A DNA stretch of 33,363 nt from the NCBI GenBank assembly GCA_025352345.1, contig JANXTP010000090.1, positions 1-33,363 of the forward strand, in the 5' to 3' direction. Shown here one piece after another: positions 6,260 through 33,363 of the stretch. This DNA comes from Burkholderiales bacterium. Lineage in GTDB: Bacteria; Pseudomonadota; Gammaproteobacteria; Burkholderiales; Burkholderiaceae_C. The translations under genes were made by a program, and so were the position numbers. Each line of letters starts with the position of its first letter. Within the stretch, counting starts at the first letter, position 1. The notes under the pieces are model-generated. The model saw nothing but the letters and a program-made list of their open reading frames with translations, searched no databases and was not told the DNA's origin.

Positions 6260-7240
6260 TCAGGCGATGTTGACGACCAACCGGCCTCGCACCTTGCCGT
6301 CGATCAAGTCGGTCGCACGCGCCACGCAATCGTCGAGCGTGATGTCTTCGGCCATCGCTTCCAGCAGGCTCAGGTCGATGTCGCGCGCCAGCCGCGCCCA
6401 GGCTTGCTCGCGCAGCGCGAGCGGAACGATGACGCTTTCAACGCCCACCAGCGTCACGCCGCGCAGGATGAACGGCATCACCGTGGCCGGCAGGTCTGCG
6501 CCCTGTGCCAGCCCGCAGGCAGCAACCACGCCGTTGTAGCGCGTCTGCGCCAGCGCATTGGCCAGCGTGTGGCTGCCGACCGCATCGACCACCGCCGCCC
6601 AGCGCTCTTTCTGCAACGGCTTGCCGGGCGACGACAGCTCGGCGCGGTCGATCACCGTGGTGGCTCCCAACTTCTTCAGGTAATCGGCCCCGGCCGCCTT
6701 GCCGGTGGCCGCGACCACGGTGTGGCCCGCCTTCGCCAGCAGCATGGTCGCGACACTGCCGACGCCGCCAGTGGCGCCCGTCACCAGCACCTCGCCATCG
6801 CCGGGCTTCACGCCATGGCGTTCGAGCGCCAGCACGCACAGCATCGCGGTGTAGCCGGCGGTGCCGAGCGCCATCGCCTGGCGAGTCGTGAAGGCTTCGG
6901 GCAGCTTCACCAACCAGTCGCCCTTCAGCCGCGCCCGCGCGGCCAGGCAGCCCCAGCGCGTTTCACCCAATCCCCAGCCGTTGTGGATGAAGCGGTCGCC
7001 CGGCTTCCATTTCGGATGGCTGCTTTCCAGCACCGTGCCAGCGCCGTCGATGCCGGCGATCATCGGCCAGCTGCGCACCACCGGCCCGCGTTGGGTGATC
7101 GCGAGGCCGTCCTTGTAGTTCAACGTCGAGTGAGAGATGGCCGCCAGCACATCGCCCTCGGGCAATTGGGCCTCATCGACCGGCTTCACCGAAGCGATGA
7201 ATCCGGCGTCGGACTTTTCAAGCAGCAGCGCTTTGAACAT
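6260..7240 (-). CDS. acuI: Acryloyl-CoA reductase, MDR family (AcuI/YhdH)
   Basis: A 326-residue zinc-free medium-chain reductase of the AcuI/YhdH group, which uses NADPH to reduce acryloyl-CoA to propionyl-CoA. Visible marks are the start MFKALLLEK, NYKDGLAITQRGPVV, the GroES-fold segment GIDGAGTVLES, and the nucleotide-binding VTGATGGVGSVA; the structural-zinc cysteines of alcohol dehydrogenases are absent. Length fits E. coli YhdH (about 324). A frame continues upstream, but ATG 7238-7240 matches the family start and has AAGGA six bases ahead; the ATG at 7244-7246 is too close to it. It heads the minus-strand run acuI-prpE-ligase and is divergent from the NlpC/P60 gene. Confidence 0.9.
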   Translation of the reverse strand: MFKALLLEKSDAGFIASVKPVDEAQLPEGDVLAAISHSTLNYKDGLAITQRGPVVRSWPMIAGIDGAGTVLESSHPKWKPGDRFIHNGWGLGETRWGCLAARARLKGDWLVKLPEAFTTRQAMALGTAGYTAMLCVLALERHGVKPGDGEVLVTGATGGVGSVATMLLAKAGHTVVAATGKAAGADYLKKLGATTVIDRAELSSPGKPLQKERWAAVVDAVGSHTLANALAQTRYNGVVAACGLAQGADLPATVMPFILRGVTLVGVESVIVPLALREQAWARLARDIDLSLLEAMAEDITLDDCVARATDLIDGKVRGRLVVNIA

Positions 7241-7378
7241 GAGCATTCCTTGTGGTTCCTGGTCATCCCCCGGGGGGGTGTAAGCATCGCGCAGATGGCT
7301 GTCTGGCGTCTGACAGGGCCCCACCGCCCGAACGAATCGCATTTGACGCCCTCCGGGGCCTCGCCTATCCTGCGCCGC

Positions 7379-8041
7379 ATGCCGAAAACCCCCACCGCCT
7401 GCGCGCAGCCCCCACACCGTGTGCGGGTTTGGTGCCGGGGGACGGCGGTGATCGGCCTGGTCACAGCCGCAGTCTGCTGGCAGCCGCTGGCGGTGGCCGC
7501 CCCCGCCGAGGGCCCGCCCGATGCAGTGACACGCTTGCTAATCGACCGTGGCCTGCTGGCTGCCGACACGACCAGCGTCGCGCCCACGCTGGCGCAGAAG
7601 CTACGCGACGGCGCCTCCGACATGGTGCTGACCGCGATGAACTTCCTCGGTGTGCCCTACCGGCGCGGCGGAACGACCGAGGCCACCGGCTTCGATTGCA
7701 GCGGCTTCACCCGCCACATATTCGAGATGAGCCTGGGCCTGGTGCTGCCGCGCCGCGCCAACGAGCAGGCGAACGCGGCAGGGCTGACGAAGGTCGGACG
7801 TGACGAGTTGCGCCCTGGCGACCTGGTGTTTTTCAACACGATGCGGCGCGCCTTCTCGCATGTGGGCATCTACGTTGGCGACGGCAAGTTCATCCATTCG
7901 CCAGCCGCCGGCGGCGCGGTGCGTGTCGATGACATGCGCTACGCCTACTGGAGCCAGCGCTTCAACGGCGCCCGACGCGCCGGGCCCGCGATCGAGCTGG
8001 TGCCCCAGGCCGCGGCGCAAACCGGAGCCGGCGCTCGCTGA
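7379..8041 (+). CDS. NlpC/P60 family cell-wall hydrolase, exported
   Basis: A 220-residue protein with an N-terminal hydrophobic segment (about 22-41, ending AVAAPA), consistent with a Sec signal peptide after an unusually basic start. The C-terminal NlpC/P60 domain has the catalytic cysteine C107 in GFDCSGF, the histidine H161 in SHVGIYVGDG and a third polar residue H173 (FIHSP). Such enzymes cleave peptide cross-bridges of peptidoglycan (typically D-Glu-diaminopimelate) in the periplasm. I chose ATG 7379 because it gives a plausible signal peptide; the frame is open far upstream, opposite acuI, but that is a shadow. It lies 60 bp ahead of moaA; any link to molybdenum cofactor is positional only. 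Confidence 0.88.
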   Translation: MPKTPTACAQPPHRVRVWCRGTAVIGLVTAAVCWQPLAVAAPAEGPPDAVTRLLIDRGLLAADTTSVAPTLAQKLRDGASDMVLTAMNFLGVPYRRGGTTEATGFDCSGFTRHIFEMSLGLVLPRRANEQANAAGLTKVGRDELRPGDLVFFNTMRRAFSHVGIYVGDGKFIHSPAAGGAVRVDDMRYAYWSQRFNGARRAGPAIELVPQAAAQTGAGAR

Positions 8042-8101
8042 ATCACCCGCGCCGCTGACCGCAAAGGCCGCGGCCCGCAGCCCTGCGTTCACAATTCGGC
8101 A

Positions 8102-9229
8102 ATGGTTGAGAAAGTGATTCCGTTGGCCGATCACCGCTATGCGTCGGCCGTGCCGATCATCCCGGCGGATCTCACTGCGCCGATCGGATCGCTGCGCGAC
8201 CAGCTCGCCCGCCCGCTGCGCGACCTGCGCATCTCGGTCACCGACCGCTGCAACTTCCGCTGCAGTTACTGCATGCCGAAAGCGGTGTTCGACCCGCGCT
8301 ACGACTTCCTGCCGCACAGCTCGCTGCTGAGCTTCGAGGAGATCACCCGGCTGGCACGGCTGTTCGTGGCGCACGGCGTGCACAAGATCCGGCTGACCGG
8401 CGGCGAGCCGCTGCTGCGCAAGGGCCTCGACCAATTGGTGCACCGGCTGAGCGAACTGCGCACACCCGAGGGCCAAGCGGTCGATCTGACGCTGACCACC
8501 AACGCCTCGCTGCTGGCGAAGAAGGCGCAGGCCTTGCGCGATGCGGGCCTGCAGCGCATCACCATCAGCCTCGATGCGCTCGACGACGCGGTGTTCCGGC
8601 GCATGAACGACATGGACTTTCCAGTCGCCGAGGTGCTCAAAGGCATCGAGGCCGCCGAGCGCGCGGGTCTCGGGCCGATCAAGGTCAACATGGTGGTCAA
8701 GCGCGGCACCAACGACCACGAGATCCTGCCGATGGCGGCGCACTTCCGGCGCACGAAGGTGGTGCTGCGCTTCATCGAGTACATGGACGTGGGCGCCACC
8801 AACGGCTGGCGCATGGACGAGGTGCTGCCGTCGGCCGAGATGATCGCGCGGATCAACGCGGCGTATCCGCTGGAAGCACTTCAGGCGAACGACAGCGGCG
8901 AGACCGCGCAGCGTTGGCGATACCGGGACGGTGCAGGCGAGATCGGCGTGATATCAAGCGTCACGCAAGCCTTCTGCCGCGACTGCAACCGCGCGCGGCT
9001 GTCCACCGAAGGCAAGCTGTTCCTGTGCCTGTTCGCCACCCACGGCCACGACCTGCGCGCGCTGCTGCGCGGTGGGGCAGGTGATTTGGAGATCGCCAGC
9101 GCGATCGGCTTGGTGTGGCAGCAGCGCGGGGACCGGTATTCGGAGTTGCGGGCCGCAGGCAATGACACCGCAACTGGCGCCGATGGCTCTGGGCCGCGTC
9201 GCGTCGAGATGCATTACATCGGCGGGTAG
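8102..9229 (+). CDS. moaA: GTP 3',8-cyclase MoaA (molybdenum cofactor step 1)
   Basis: A 375-residue radical-SAM enzyme that converts GTP to 3',8-cyclo-dihydro-GTP in molybdopterin synthesis. The radical-SAM cluster cysteines are C50, C54 and C57 (CNFRCSYC). The second 4Fe-4S cluster that holds GTP uses C292, C295 and C309 ([19 protein letters not shown]). The chain ends in the conserved Gly-Gly (374-375). LTGGEPLLR near 98-106 is also typical. The N-terminal ~40 residues before LRISVTDRC are longer than in E. coli. The next small gene starts 8 bp after its stop, so moaA-orphan-mobA looks like one operon. Confidence 0.97.
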
Positions 9230-9236
9230 GCCCCTC

Positions 9237-9548
9237 ATGAATTGCAGCATGTGGAGGTCTGGTCGCGAGCAAGTGTCTTATGAAGAAAGCTCGCTCTGCT
9301 GCGACTTCACATGCACGTATCCGCGTAACGGTCAGCCTCAATGTTTCTACCTGATTGACCGGACGACGGAAAATGAAGTCGAACGCAAGCTCACGCCGAA
9401 CGAACTGGCGCGCATCGAAATTTGCCCCCGAGACGACCTGCCCACTCGAAGGTTTCCTCGCTTCAAGATCGGCAGTCAAGAACTGATGGTTGTTCGCGGT
9501 CAATCACTCCGAGAACTTGGTGGTCACCCGCGGCATTTCGCAAGCTAA
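9237..9548 (+). CDS. Small cysteine-rich protein of unknown function between moaA and mobA
   Basis: A 103-residue protein that I do not recognise. It has six cysteines (C3, C21, C22, C26, C36, C63), several in a CC-x3-C cluster, no signal peptide and no membrane segment. Its stop codon overlaps the mobA start (TAATG at 9546-9550), and its ATG lies 8 bp after the moaA stop, with a GGTAGG-like site upstream. This tight packing is the main evidence that it is translated. Codon use differs from its neighbours: by my hand count about 58% of codons end in G or C, with many GAA, CAA, GGT and CGA codons. It may be acquired DNA or a fast-evolving gene. It could bind metal or Fe-S through the cysteines, but nothing proves that. 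Confidence 0.65.
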
Positions 9549-10210
9549 TGATCCCCACTGAACACATCACTGGTCTGATCCTGGCCGGCGGCCGGGGCAG
9601 CCGGATGGGTGGGGTCGACAAGGGTTTGCAGAACCACTGGGGCATTCCGCTCGCGCTGCATGCCATGCAGAGGCTGTCGCCGCAGGTCGGCACGGTGATG
9701 ATCAGTGCCAACCGCCACCTCGACACCTACGCGTCGTTGGGCGTTCCGGTGTGGCCCGACGCGATGCCCGACTACGCCGGGCCACTCGCGGGCGTTCTCG
9801 CAGGGCTGGAACACTGCGACACGCCCTACTTGGTGACGGTGCCCTGCGACACGCCGAACTTTCCGACCGATCTGGTCGCGCGGCTGGCGGTTGGTTTGAT
9901 CGCAAAGGACACGCAGATCGCGATGGCCGCGACGCGCGATGGTGATGGCGCGCAGGCGCAGCCTGTGTTCTGCCTGATGACGTGCAGCCTGAAAGACAGC
10001 CTGATCGAATTCATCGCCAGCGGCCAGCGCCAGGTCGAGCGCTGGACGGCTTTGCACCGCTGTGCCACGGTGCTGTTCGACGACGTGGCCGCTTTTGCCA
10101 ACGCCAACACCGCACAAGAGCTACACCAGTTACAGACGGCTGCGATGACGCCGGGCGTGATTCAAACCGGCGACCGGGACAATGTGCTCCCGTTCGCCGG
10201 CCTTGCCTGA
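9548..10210 (+). CDS. mobA: Molybdenum cofactor guanylyltransferase MobA
   Basis: A 220-residue nucleotidyltransferase that joins GMP from GTP to molybdopterin to give the guanine dinucleotide cofactor used by DMSO-reductase-family enzymes. The signature [18 protein letters not shown] lies at residues 10-27, followed by [18 protein letters not shown] and [13 protein letters not shown], all typical of MobA. The start ATG overlaps the stop of the preceding small gene, which implies translational coupling; the frame stays open further upstream, but the motif position fixes this start. It is convergent with ppsA, with only 6 bp between the stops. Confidence 0.95.
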
Positions 10211-28927: not shown

Positions 28928-29935
28928 ATGAACCAGCATCGGCCTCGTTATTTCATGCGTCGTTTGACGGCAGCGGCCCTGCTCGTGTTCGGTCACGCAG
29001 GCATCTCATCGGCACAGGAAGCCGCCCCATCCACGCTCGCATCACCGCTCGCGCCAGCAACCTCGACACCCCCAGCGCAACCGCAGATGCCCGCCATGGT
29101 GCCGGGTCGCCAAGGCAAGCTGCTGCTGACCTCGGGCGTCAGCAGCATCGACGGCGCTGCCGGCGGCGGTCTGACGCCGTGGGCCGTGACCGGCGGCTAC
29201 GCCACCGATGGCAGCTTCGGCACCAGCGCCTTCTTTACCCGCACCATCGTGCAGGACTACGCGCTGAACGTGTATGGCGTGGCCGTGGGCTGGGGCGATC
29301 GGCTGGAAGTCTCGCTGGCGCGGCAGGAATTCAACACCGGCCAGTCGATCGCGCCGCTCGGCTTTCCGGGCCTGAAGCTGCGCCAGACCATCGTCGGCCT
29401 GAAAGTGCGCGTCGCGGGCGATGCGGTGCTCGACAGCGACAATTTCATGCCGCAGATTGCCCTCGGCATCGAATACAAGGACCTGGACTCGGGCCGCTTT
29501 GAGCCGGTGCTGCGCTCGCTCGGCGCTCACACGCAGGGCACCGATTTCTATGCCAGTGCCACCAAGCTGTTCCTGGCGCAGAGCGTGCTCGTCAACGCTA
29601 CACTGCGCGCCACCCGCGCCAACCAGAACGGCCTGCTCGGCTTCGGCAGCAGCAAGCGCAACGGCTACCGCCTCGAGGCCGAGATGTCGCTGGCGCTGGC
29701 CTTGCGCAAAGACCTGGCGATCGGCATCGAATACCGCATGAAGCCCGACAACCTGAACGGTGTGGTCTTCGGCAACGGCTTGCGTGAAGACGACTGGAAA
29801 GATGCCTTCATCGCCTGGACGCCCTGCAAAGATTTTTCGCTGACGCTGGCCTATGTCGACCTCGGCCACATCGTGCCAGCGCTGACGCCACGGCGGCAGA
29901 CCGGGCCCTATGTGTCGGCGCAGCTGTCTTATTGA
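28928..29935 (+). CDS. DUF3034 family outer-membrane-like protein
   Basis: A 335-residue protein with a signal peptide (hydrophobic AALLVFGHAGISSAQ, cut near residue 30), then a Pro/Ala/Thr linker to about residue 58. The rest shows KLLLTSGVSSIDGAAGGGLTPWAVTGGYATDG, typical of DUF3034, and alternating hydrophobic strands ending in an aromatic residue (YVSAQLSY, final Tyr), as in outer-membrane beta-barrels. The function is unknown; a porin or surface protein is inferred. It precedes an exported globin gene by 24 bp, and the two likely form an operon. The translated N-terminus may begin at the second Met (FMRRLT). Confidence 0.85.
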   Translation: MNQHRPRYFMRRLTAAALLVFGHAGISSAQEAAPSTLASPLAPATSTPPAQPQMPAMVPGRQGKLLLTSGVSSIDGAAGGGLTPWAVTGGYATDGSFGTSAFFTRTIVQDYALNVYGVAVGWGDRLEVSLARQEFNTGQSIAPLGFPGLKLRQTIVGLKVRVAGDAVLDSDNFMPQIALGIEYKDLDSGRFEPVLRSLGAHTQGTDFYASATKLFLAQSVLVNATLRATRANQNGLLGFGSSKRNGYRLEAEMSLALALRKDLAIGIEYRMKPDNLNGVVFGNGLREDDWKDAFIAWTPCKDFSLTLAYVDLGHIVPALTPRRQTGPYVSAQLSY

Positions 29936-29959: not shown

Positions 29960-30466
29960 ATGAAACCTGCATCGAACCGCGCTCGCGCGCTGAACACGTT
30001 TTGGATCCTCGGGCTGTGCGGTCTGGCGACCAGTGGCTTGGCTCACGCCGAGGAACCAAAACGCCCACCGGCCGTGGTCGACTCCTACATTCCGGTGGCG
30101 CCACCCGACGACTCGCTGTACCAGGACCTGGGCGGGCAGAGTGGCTTGGTCAAGATCGCCGACGAATTTCTAACCCGCCTGCAGGCCGATCCGCAGCTGG
30201 CGGCGTTCTTCCGCGACATCGACGCCAAGCAGTTCAAGGAGCGACTGGTAACCCAGTTCTGCGAAGTCTCGGGCGGGCCGTGCAAGCAGGCCAAGCACGA
30301 CATGCGCAAAGTGCACAGCGCGGTCGACATCAACAAGGCCAGCTTCAATGCCACCGTCGAGGTGCTACAGCAGGCGATGGACGCGCAGGGCGTGGGCTAC
30401 CGCACACAGAACAGATTGCTGGCGCAGCTCGCGCCAATGCATCGCGACATCATCAACGCACCTTGA
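29960..30466 (+). CDS. Exported group 1 truncated haemoglobin
   Basis: A 168-residue truncated globin preceded by a signal peptide (hydrophobic FWILGLCGLATSGLAHA, cut near residue 30). The globin part runs from LYQDLGGQSGLVKIADEFL (53-71) to the C-terminus. The proximal haem histidine is H119 (MRKVHSAVDI), as in Mycobacterium HbN. The B10 position, Tyr in HbN, aligns with L71, and two cysteines (C101, C108, in FCEVSGGPC) could form a disulfide if the protein is periplasmic. Bacterial truncated globins bind O2 or NO and are normally cytoplasmic. It follows the DUF3034 gene by 24 bp. Globin assignment is firm; export is likely. Confidence 0.87.
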   Translation: MKPASNRARALNTFWILGLCGLATSGLAHAEEPKRPPAVVDSYIPVAPPDDSLYQDLGGQSGLVKIADEFLTRLQADPQLAAFFRDIDAKQFKERLVTQFCEVSGGPCKQAKHDMRKVHSAVDINKASFNATVEVLQQAMDAQGVGYRTQNRLLAQLAPMHRDIINAP

Positions 30467-30542: not shown

Positions 30543-31688
30543 ATGCCACGCATCACCCACATCGAAGAACTGCGCCTCCTTGCCAAGAAGCGGGTGCCGC
30601 GGATGTTCTACGACTACGCCGATTCGGGCTCGTGGACCGAAGGCACCTACCGCGCCAACGAGGCTGACTTCCAGCGCATTCAGTTGCGCCAGCGCGTGGC
30701 CGTCGACATCGCCAAACGCAGCACGCGGGTGCAGATGATCGGCATCGACGCCGCCATGCCGGTGGCCATCGCGCCGACCGGCATGACCGGCATGCAGCAC
30801 GCCGACGGCGAAATCTTGGCGGCGCGCGCGGCCGAGAAGTTCGGCATCCCGTTCACGCTGAGCACGATGAGCATCTGCTCGATCGAGGACATCGCGGCGC
30901 ACACCACCGCGCCGTTTTGGTTTCAGCTGTATGTCATGAAGGACCGCGGCTTCGTCGAGCGGTTGATCGAGCGCGCCCGCGCTGCCAGGTGCAGCGCGCT
31001 GATGCTCACGCTCGATCTGCAGGTGCTGGGCCAGCGCCACAAAGACATCCACAACGGCCTGAGCGCACCGCCCAAGCCCACCATCGCCAACCTGATCAAC
31101 CTGGCCACCAAGCCGCGCTGGTGCATGGGCATGCTGGGCACGAAGCGACGCAGCTTCGGCAACATCGTCGGCCATGCGCAGGGCGTGGGCGATCTGTCGT
31201 CGCTGAGCTCATGGACGGCCGAGCAGTTCGACCCGGCGCTGACCTGGGCCGATGTCGAATGGGTCAAAAAGCGCTGGGGCGGCAAGCTGATCCTGAAGGG
31301 CATCATGGACGCCGAAGACGCGCGGCTGGCTGCCGACAGCGGCGCCGACGCATTGATCGTGTCGAACCACGGCGGCCGCCAGCTCGACGGCGCGCCGTCG
31401 TCGATCGCCGCGCTGCCGGCGATTGCCGACGCGGTCGGGGACCGCATCGAGGTGTGGATGGACGGCGGCATCCGCAGCGGCCAGGAGGTGCTGAAAGCCT
31501 GGGCGCTGGGCGCACGCGGCACGCTGATCGGCCGCAGCTTCCTCTATGGCCTGGGCGCGATGGGCGAGGCCGGCGTGACCCGCTGTCTGGAGATCATCCG
31601 CAACGAACTCGACCTGACGATGGCGTTTTGCGGGCACACCGACCTGCTCACGGTGGACCGAGGGATCCTGCTGCCCGGCAGCTGCTGA
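30543..31688 (+). CDS. lldD: FMN-dependent alpha-hydroxy acid dehydrogenase (LldD-like)
   Basis: A 381-residue flavoenzyme that oxidises L-2-hydroxyacids, probably L-lactate, to 2-oxoacids. Active-site positions known from glycolate oxidase are all present: Y25 (FYDYADSG), Y130 (FQLYV), K252 (LILKGI), H276 and R279 (SNHGGRQLDG). The FMN-binding end (DGGIRSGQEVLKAWALGARGTLIGRSFLYGLG) is intact. A membrane association is common for LldD but not visible here. It starts 76 bp after the globin gene, with a strong hairpin between. The true substrate (lactate, glycolate, mandelate) cannot be decided from sequence by eye. Confidence 0.9.
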   Translation: MPRITHIEELRLLAKKRVPRMFYDYADSGSWTEGTYRANEADFQRIQLRQRVAVDIAKRSTRVQMIGIDAAMPVAIAPTGMTGMQHADGEILAARAAEKFGIPFTLSTMSICSIEDIAAHTTAPFWFQLYVMKDRGFVERLIERARAARCSALMLTLDLQVLGQRHKDIHNGLSAPPKPTIANLINLATKPRWCMGMLGTKRRSFGNIVGHAQGVGDLSSLSSWTAEQFDPALTWADVEWVKKRWGGKLILKGIMDAEDARLAADSGADALIVSNHGGRQLDGAPSSIAALPAIADAVGDRIEVWMDGGIRSGQEVLKAWALGARGTLIGRSFLYGLGAMGEAGVTRCLEIIRNELDLTMAFCGHTDLLTVDRGILLPGSC

Positions 31689-32274: not shown

Positions 32275-33075
32275 ATGGCGCACTGCATCATCGTGAACGA
32301 GACCTCATCAGGCCGAACGATCGCGTGGCTCAACAAGGTCCCGGAGATCACACTGGCCTTCTGGATCATCAAGATCCTGTCCACCACCGTGGGCGAGACC
32401 GGCGCCGACTTCCTGGCGGTCAATGCAGGCTGGGGCCAGGGCCCGACCCGCATGGTGATGGCCACCTTGCTGGCGGTGGCGCTGGTCGTGCAGCTGAGAA
32501 CGCGCCGCTACACCCCTTGGGCCTACTGGCTCACTGTGGTGCTGGTGAGTGTGGTGGGCACCCAGGTCACCGACCTGCTGACCGATGGCCTGGACGTCAG
32601 CCTGTACGTCAGCACGGCGGCGTTCGCGCTGACACTGGTCGCGATCTTTGCTGTCTGGTACCGGGTGGAGCGCACCTTGTCCGTCCACGACATCGTCACC
32701 CCCAGGCGCGAGCTGTTCTATTGGCTGGCCATCCTGTGCACCTTCGCACTCGGTACGGCGGCCGGCGATCTGGCTACCGAAGCCCTGGGCCTGGGTTTCG
32801 TGTGGGGCGCTGTCGCGTTCGGTGCGTTGATCGCCGTGTCCTACGCAGCGTGGCGGATCGGCGGCAACGCGGTGCTCACTTTCTGGCTGGCCTACATCCT
32901 GACCCGGCCCTTCGGCGCGACCCTGGGTGACCTGCTGACCCAGGCCAAGACCTATGGCGGCCTGGGCGTGGGCGCCATGTGGACCAGCGCGCTGTTCCTC
33001 ACCGTGATAGTGGCGCTGGTGGCCACTGCGCAGTTAAGCCAGAACCACCGGTCTGCACAACCAGCTGCCGATTGA
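32275..33075 (+). CDS. COG4705-type membrane protein with four internal repeats
   Basis: A 266-residue inner-membrane protein with about eight hydrophobic helices. Four repeats each contain G-x4-D-[LF]: G40-D45, G95-D100, G160-D165 and G214-D219, spaced 54-65 residues apart. This fits COG4705, uncharacterised membrane proteins with duplicated two-helix units. The conserved Gly and Asp within membrane-near segments suggest a transport or ion-related role, but none is established. The start is uncertain: ATG 32275 has no ribosome site and the frame is open upstream to 31948; GTG 32293 is another option. A lipoprotein gene starts 53 bp downstream. Confidence 0.82.
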   Translation: MAHCIIVNETSSGRTIAWLNKVPEITLAFWIIKILSTTVGETGADFLAVNAGWGQGPTRMVMATLLAVALVVQLRTRRYTPWAYWLTVVLVSVVGTQVTDLLTDGLDVSLYVSTAAFALTLVAIFAVWYRVERTLSVHDIVTPRRELFYWLAILCTFALGTAAGDLATEALGLGFVWGAVAFGALIAVSYAAWRIGGNAVLTFWLAYILTRPFGATLGDLLTQAKTYGGLGVGAMWTSALFLTVIVALVATAQLSQNHRSAQPAAD

Positions 33076-33128
33076 ATAACCAATCGATGCGCTATACCTC
33101 TCAATCCTCTACCGCTCCAGGAAGCCCC

Positions 33129-33363
33129 GTGAACACTCACACTTCGCTCACTCGATCGTCCGTGTCTGCGGCGGCAGCGCTGCTTCTGATCATCGCCGCA
33201 GGTTGCTCCAAGCCACCCGAACAAGCCACCGGCGCTGGGAGCACGGCAGCAACGGGACAGCAGGCGTCGGCTACGGTTGATCACACCGCGTCGCGCCTGG
33301 GGGACCTCACTGCCTTTCGCACCATTGCGGCCGACGTTTCCGGCATCGTCAACAAAGGCGACC
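33129..33363 (+). CDS. Putative lipoprotein, N-terminal part (cut by window edge)
   Basis: The frame from GTG 33129 to the window end encodes 78 residues and stays open. A basic N-terminus is followed by a hydrophobic stretch (VSAAAALLLIIAAGC) whose IAAGC is a lipobox, so C25 would be lipidated. A low-complexity Ala/Thr/Gly/Gln linker follows, then LGDLTAFRTIAADVSGIVNKGD, which I do not recognise. CAGGAAG lies 4 nt before the start. It may share a transcript with the COG4705 gene. Confidence 0.65.
   Translation, partial: MNTHTSLTRSSVSAAAALLLIIAAGCSKPPEQATGAGSTAATGQQASATVDHTASRLGDLTAFRTIAADVSGIVNKGD

Follow-up and report, generated by a model that had tools for sequence, protein, structure and literature searches.

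The mmf cluster is carried by Tn6048 of Cupriavidus metallidurans (PMC4914505) and is induced by Zn and Pb (PMC2864759; PMC12029693). On CH34, pHB44 and pBS64 it runs mmfA-B-C1-D-C2-R-S and eamA, annotated in that order as PepSY, undecaprenyl-diphosphatase, DUF347, a ~150-aa protein, DUF347, response regulator, kinase and EamA. Strains of C. gilardii with mmf did not differ in growth with Cd, Co or Zn (PMC12029693), and the phenotypes described for pHB44, namely Fe/V-dependent growth and bacitracin resistance, are those of the plasmid as a whole (PMC4914505).

The mmfC1–mmfD pair in the window

The window, meaning the whole stretch of 33,363 nucleotides analysed here, is the entire contig C79 and ends in a DUF347 membrane protein gene (product P0001) followed by a lipoprotein gene that the contig end cuts off. 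Going by sequence, the pair is mmfC1–mmfD of the Tn6048 mmf cluster, because P0001 matches MmfC1 at 80.5% and the gene order is the same; its products are an inner-membrane protein and a small, helical lipoprotein of the periplasm. The 80.5% identity comes from a tblastn search of plasmids and applies to the DUF347 proteins on pHB44, in Burkholderia vietnamiensis G4 and on the CH34 megaplasmid of C. metallidurans; identity to MmfC1 overall was 80-85% and to MmfC2 about 33%, which makes P0001 C1-type. The operon was already named and known, which the preliminary description of this DNA had missed, while the detail on the pair is new.

Like the Tn6048 cluster, the locus holds an orthologous mmfC1 and then mmfD, with similar protein sizes, but here C1–D stands alone. 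Upstream, a gene for FMN_dh and a small ORF on the minus strand take the place of mmfA and mmfB, and no mmfB homologue was found in the window's 95%-complete genome. Downstream on contig C250, assumed to be the true continuation, neither the regulator pair mmfR/mmfS nor mmfC2 was found; past mmfD lie a convergent ypfJ-like gene and a dcd-like ORF. A C2-like paralogue is present on contig C326 of the same genome. No tni transposition genes were noticed among the listed flanking ORFs. Further upstream in the window, the gene for a DUF3034 protein (28928-29935) has immediately after it one for a bacterial-type globin with a signal peptide (29960-30466), and next comes that of the FMN-dependent dehydrogenase (30543-31688).

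Repeats, motifs and predicted topology of MmfC1

P0001 belongs to PF03988 (DUF347; COG4705 was the label used in the preliminary description), and all four of its repeats score above the curated cut-off of 28.2 bits, like those of the complete members seen; nothing distinguishes it from them. The preliminary description had reported G-x4-D-[LF] four times at regular spacing and a fourfold two-helix repeat in an eight-helix protein, and both are borne out by the four Pfam repeats, the eight predicted TM helices and a common helix register of the motifs. The motif occurs exactly four times, at residues 40, 95, 160 and 214, against a mean of 0.12 copies in composition-preserving shuffles of MmfC1, none of which reached four copies in 20,000. 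Profiles of the repeats built from 116 homologues were significantly similar in all six pairwise comparisons (E 8e-14 to 3e-5), and the repeats are therefore related and not just similarly hydrophobic. Chance repetition of the motif in a hydrophobic protein is refuted by the shuffles, the Pfam repeats and conservation across six phyla, which leave it a negligible probability.

Table 1. Features of the mmfC1–mmfD locus and of the DUF347–MmfD fusion proteins; positions are those of the window unless a contig or locus is given.
Feature	Position	Strand	Details
mmfC1-type DUF347 membrane protein P0001	32275..33075	+	266 aa, eight TM helices; PF03988 E=1.7e-56
DUF347 repeat 1 (helices 1-2)	32356..32511	+	Pfam 65.5 bits
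DUF347 repeat 2 (helices 3-4)	32521..32676	+	Pfam 60.7 bits
DUF347 repeat 3 (helices 5-6)	32716..32853	+	Pfam 44.3 bits
DUF347 repeat 4 (helices 7-8)	32881..33033	+	Pfam 52.9 bits
Motif G40-E41-x3-D45, helix 1	32392..32409	+	G 116/116, E 116/116, D 115/116
Motif G95-T96-x3-D100, helix 3	32557..32574	+	All positions 116/116
Motif G160-T161-x3-D165, helix 5	32752..32769	+	All positions 116/116
Motif G214-A215-x3-D219, helix 7	32914..32931	+	G 116/116, A 116/116, D 115/116; invariant R211-P212 precede
mmfD lipoprotein, N-terminal 78 residues	33129..33363	+	GTG start at 33129; cut by contig end
MmfD predicted lipidated Cys26 (LLLIIAAGC-SK)	33204..33206	+	Sequence lipobox
Full mmfD, 148 aa	contig C250, L035:4999-5442	-	Overlap of C250 with window tail
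DUF347–TM9–MmfD fusion, Rhodococcus opacus pROB01, 429 aa	L148:4971-6260		MmfD profile E 3e-28
DUF347–TM9–MmfD fusion, Mycolicibacterium rufum, 411 aa	L165:1691-2926		MmfD profile E 7e-22
DUF347–TM9–MmfD fusion, Cnuibacter physcomitrellae, 421 aa	L166:1691-2956		MmfD profile E 3e-19
DUF347–TM9–MmfD fusion, a Streptomyces, 418 aa	L168:1679-2935		MmfD profile E 1e-7
DUF347–TM9–MmfD fusion, Priestia megaterium, 400 aa	L167:3110-4312		MmfD profile E 1e-21

Conservation was assessed on 116 non-redundant proteins from Pseudomonadota, Actinomycetota, Bacillota, Bacteroidota, Deinococcota and Cyanobacteriota. Invariant across all of them were K33, T38, G40, E41, G54, W85, G95, T96, D100, W128, E146, W150, G160, T161, G164, D165, F203, W204, R211, P212, G214 and A215. 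The four motif Gly are thus all invariant, and the Asp expected in every repeat is likewise conserved, with D45 and D219 each missing from a single homologue. An aromatic-Trp pair stands ahead of each motif. The conserved motif set is acidic (the four Asp and E41), the invariant basic residues in the same helices being K33 and R211, and no Cys, His or Met of MmfC1 is invariant in this alignment. From sequence, this acidic set is the chief reason to propose a site for cations over one for phosphate or a lipid headgroup.

The proposal of two successive duplications predicts that repeat 1 should resemble repeat 3, and repeat 2 repeat 4, and it found no support in the profile scores or the repeat tree. 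R2-R3 was the closest pair by profile score, while R1-R3 and R2-R4 were the two weakest and R2-R4 the lowest. Each of the four repeats formed its own group in the tree, where R1+R4 against R2+R3 was the best arrangement (72/46, low support) and a grouping of R1+R3 was not rejected (p-AU 0.37). The order of duplication is unreadable from these scores and this tree, and DUF347 evidently was a four-repeat protein already before the family spread.

An AlphaFold model of MmfC1 from an 88-sequence alignment (pLDDT 92.3, pTM 0.88) placed TM helices at residues 27-50, 55-75, 81-105, 110-132, 143-170, 174-194, 199-222 and 234-261. Each motif sits at the same register of its helix (1, 3, 5 or 7), with the Asp 3-5 residues before the modelled helix end. 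Loops between repeats carried on average 2.27, 3.41 and 1.03 K+R, and loops within repeats 0.09, 0.50, 0.23 and 1.06; the Asp ends of helices 1/3/5/7 are therefore predicted to be periplasmic. This charge bias and the helix ends predict that both termini and the inter-repeat loops are cytoplasmic. Repeat detection, topology and structure prediction hence agree in placing the motifs at equivalent positions. The preliminary description had linked an intramembrane Asp in each repeat to ion or proton coupling. The Asp are conserved in every repeat, but charge bias and the modelled helix ends put them close to the periplasmic ends, which makes an acidic site towards the outer face more probable than a proton relay in the middle of the membrane; ion coupling as such may or may not apply.

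Searching the PDB by sequence, with P0001 and then with a profile of 88 sequences, gave no match. Foldseek comparison of two MmfC1 models with the PDB returned nothing at E <= 0.001 (best E 0.35, TM at most 0.38), nor did comparison of the better model with viral structures at the same threshold. The shape of MmfC1, as predicted, matches no solved structure.

MmfD and its probable partnership with MmfC1

The lipoprotein that had been proposed to start 53 bp after the membrane protein is real: the ORF coordinates and the gap from the mmfC1 stop codon are exact, and the full domain, truncated in the window, was recovered from contig C250. This contig shares the last part of the window: the two are identical at either end of the overlap but differ in between, and mmfD on C250 runs to a stop. 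The polymorphic overlap spans about 430 bp (window 32931-33363 against L035) and fits a strain mixture in the draft genome. A second mmfC1–mmfD locus was considered for C250, and a strain bubble is likelier given the identical overlap ends and the fact that each contig continues one way only. A profile of 33 MmfD proteins matched the window fragment at E 1.6e-13 and the C250 form at E 2.8e-57.

MmfD consists of a signal peptide, a lipobox Cys, a low-complexity linker and a helical core of ~90 aa, which has invariant D/E/K/R/W/H positions among close homologues. The lipobox pattern was found in 50/77 homologues, most of the others having a plain signal peptide, and alphaproteobacterial MmfD mostly lack the Cys; lipidation, as read from these sequences, is a feature of a branch and not universal. 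No family match was obtained for MmfD in Pfam, NCBIfam or the PDB, and weak coiled-coil-like matches (lamin E 0.07; CATASP 9e-4; cytochrome b562 0.04) were attributed to composition.

The suggestion that the lipoprotein might be a constant neighbour turned out to be nearly correct. Among 79 C1 loci whose downstream DNA was long enough, most of them from Burkholderiales, Pseudomonas, Bradyrhizobium and Methylobacterium, mmfD was directly next at 69, mmfR lay within 4 kb at 61, C2 at 32 and mmfB at 16, with mmfD and mmfR both present at 57. Strong mmfD matches occurred in 4/9 DUF347-bearing genomes of the family as against 0/52 others (61 genomes), and 39/40 plasmid records, by a count of listed coordinates, had MmfD either fused to DUF347 or no more than 0.5 kb from it. 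On plasmids mmfD lies downstream in the C1 branch and upstream in several Rhizobium and Thioclava. MmfD was found at only 2/20 distant plasmid DUF347 loci, so the notion that it partners all DUF347 was rejected: MmfD almost never occurs without DUF347, and many distant DUF347 occur without MmfD. A separate arrangement was seen in Methylobacterium/Methylorubrum (L106, L107, L111, L112, about 7000-9850), where three DUF347 genes are consecutive and mmfD sits between the first and second.

Five proteins, all annotated merely as hypothetical, carry both modules in one chain (Table 1), each combining the four motifs of DUF347, a ninth hydrophobic helix after a basic stretch, and the MmfD domain; the MmfD profile gave no match in 167 unfused DUF347 proteins. 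These fusions from Actinomycetota and Priestia have the same two modules as the window pair in the same order, but as one polypeptide in which the ninth TM helix replaces the lipoprotein signal. They keep the W-x3-D-x3-D core of MmfD and have lost its His, which weakens the invariant W-H as a candidate metal ligand. The best evidence that MmfC1 and MmfD act together is that they form one protein in five genera of two phyla. For the ninth helix to put MmfD outside, the C-terminus of DUF347 has to be inside; this fits the topology predicted from charge and would bring MmfD to the side of the Asp motifs. It is thus very likely that the two work together with MmfD outside the membrane, and near-constant adjacency, with the fusions in Actinomycetota and Bacillota, strongly suggests that C1–D is one functional unit.

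Candidate functions and comparison with known systems

The reading I favour, tentatively, is that the pair carries divalent metal, with an acidic site on the outside and a periplasmic domain as helper, in an envelope metal-stress response. MmfC1, a small protein with its N- and C-termini inside, would act as a carrier or channel for Zn, Pb and perhaps Fe; the four repeat Asp and E41 would form the outer-face site, K33 and R211 being in the same helices, and MmfD may cap, buffer or deliver metal there. A PmrAB/QseBC-like two-component system stands beside the pair in most close relatives and would make it a metal-triggered envelope-stress module, while the window's genome keeps only C1–D at the locus. 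The acidic invariant residues and the induction data are the grounds for favouring metal handling at the outer face. Genes for CDF, P-type ATPase, RND, FetAB, EfeUOB, MbfA and FeoAB proteins lie near DUF347 in several phyla. Counted against a metal carrier were the lack of an invariant Cys, His or Met in MmfC1, the loss of the MmfD His in the fusions, the null growth result in C. gilardii, the whole-plasmid nature of the pHB44 phenotypes, and neighbouring UPP phosphatases, DedA and EptA/MCR, which suit a lipid role too. As an observation of its own, an mmfC1-like DUF347 gene of another genome (G041) has a divergent CopK-family copper-resistance gene (PF11525, E 3.5e-19; L032:952-1290, minus strand) about 260 bp upstream.

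It is also conceivable, if rather unlikely, that DUF347 acts on the undecaprenyl carrier or lipid A precursors, as a flippase or as an accessory to UPP phosphatase or EptA, and that metal induction merely reflects the PmrAB-like sensor. A PAP2/UppP gene lay within 5 kb in 11/20 annotated plasmid records from six phyla, against a background, taken from 20 genomes with DUF347, of about 0.7 PAP2 per Mb, but in only 3/20 Pseudomonadota genomes, and mmfB, part of the full mmf operon, is near only 16/79 C1 loci and was not found in the window's genome; a constant association of DUF347 with UPP phosphatase was rejected on these counts. DedA proteins, which are C55-P flippases (PMC12893004), are encoded near DUF347 in Priestia, Cryobacterium and Deinococcus aquaticus, and among the 20 plasmid records DedA occurred in three, EptA or MCR-10 in two and MprF in one. 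PAP2 and kinase genes adjoin a Priestia fusion, a Methylophaga row reads EptA-PAP2-DUF2231-DUF347-DgkA (L162:12092-16134) and then LTA synthase, and MCR-10 is upstream of DUF347 in Enterobacter. The mostly acidic invariant residues, on the other hand, are poorly suited to binding a phosphate headgroup, and DUF347 is reported in algae too (PMC9756366).

With every score below the curated cut-offs, MmfR comes closest to PmrA, and MmfS to QseC, PmrB and heavy-metal kinases. Systems of the PmrAB type detect metals and promote modification of lipid A, and given the likeness of MmfR to PmrA the metal and lipid readings may be one. In that form DUF347–MmfD would be a two-part membrane transporter with no solved counterpart in architecture, a pseudo-fourfold 4x2-TM protein whose external helical cap is fused to it in some phyla, and it would tie undecaprenyl-lipid or lipid A chemistry to divalent metal at the outer face, which I consider unlikely as a whole; if true, mmf would link metal stress to cell-wall antibiotic tolerance. 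Two neighbourhoods are recorded here in their own right. On the conjugative plasmid pECL_A of Enterobacter roggenkampii (L158:12502-15741) mcr-10.1 is followed, about 0.85 kb downstream, by a DUF347 gene; the Enterobacter and Methylophaga loci raise a possible tie of DUF347 to lipid A phosphoethanolamine transferases that may merit separate attention. Another recurring neighbour is DUF2127, encoded within about 6 kb of DUF347 in Brasilonema, Mesorhizobium, Thioclava and Tolypothrix (L147, L155, L156, L160).

Less probable still is that MmfC1–MmfD is a co-sensor of MmfRS and not a transporter, with MmfD binding the stimulus and MmfC1 relaying it to the kinase. The compact C1–D–R–S order, the 57 loci with both mmfD and mmfR, and a Streptomyces fusion directly after a kinase gene fit such a relay, but the window's genome and several relatives keep C1–D without adjacent R–S, and fourfold repeats with membrane charges are more typical of carriers or channels. 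An MFS-type permease, the annotation found only in the pHB44 and C. gilardii papers (PMC4914505, PMC12029693), is highly improbable: some weak Foldseek matches are MFS proteins, but eight helices in four two-helix repeats are not the 12-14 of that superfamily, the Foldseek values above contradict it, and no MFS Pfam match was found.

DUF347 occurs in at least six bacterial phyla, beside the report from algae, on conjugative plasmids and on a metal-induced transposon, and has no solved fold. This analysis adds its invariant residues, a confident model that has no PDB counterpart, and an unannotated domain, MmfD, that is a near-obligate partner of one DUF347 branch and is fused to DUF347 in two phyla. 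It also adds recurrent neighbours tied to metal and envelope-lipid pathways, and together these results provide defined residues and gene pairs to test.

For metal carriage as the favoured reading, two further systems bear comparison. UppP–DUF347 operons of Frankia are induced by lead (PMC4531530); they share DUF347, a UPP phosphatase and metal induction with the mmf cluster, but belong to another phylum, have no reported mmfD, and their DUF347 protein was described with six TM helices as opposed to the eight predicted here. In the pbr operon, the efflux ATPase PbrA works with the C55-PP phosphatase PbrB, a precedent for a phosphatase in lead resistance (PMC3431237). No sequence relation was found between DUF347 and known metal pumps, nor was any mmfB found here; pbr offers a functional analogy only, of export combined with phosphatase-driven precipitation; by that analogy, the UPP phosphatase of mmf loci, where present, could supply phosphate that precipitates exported metal, as PbrB does in lead resistance.
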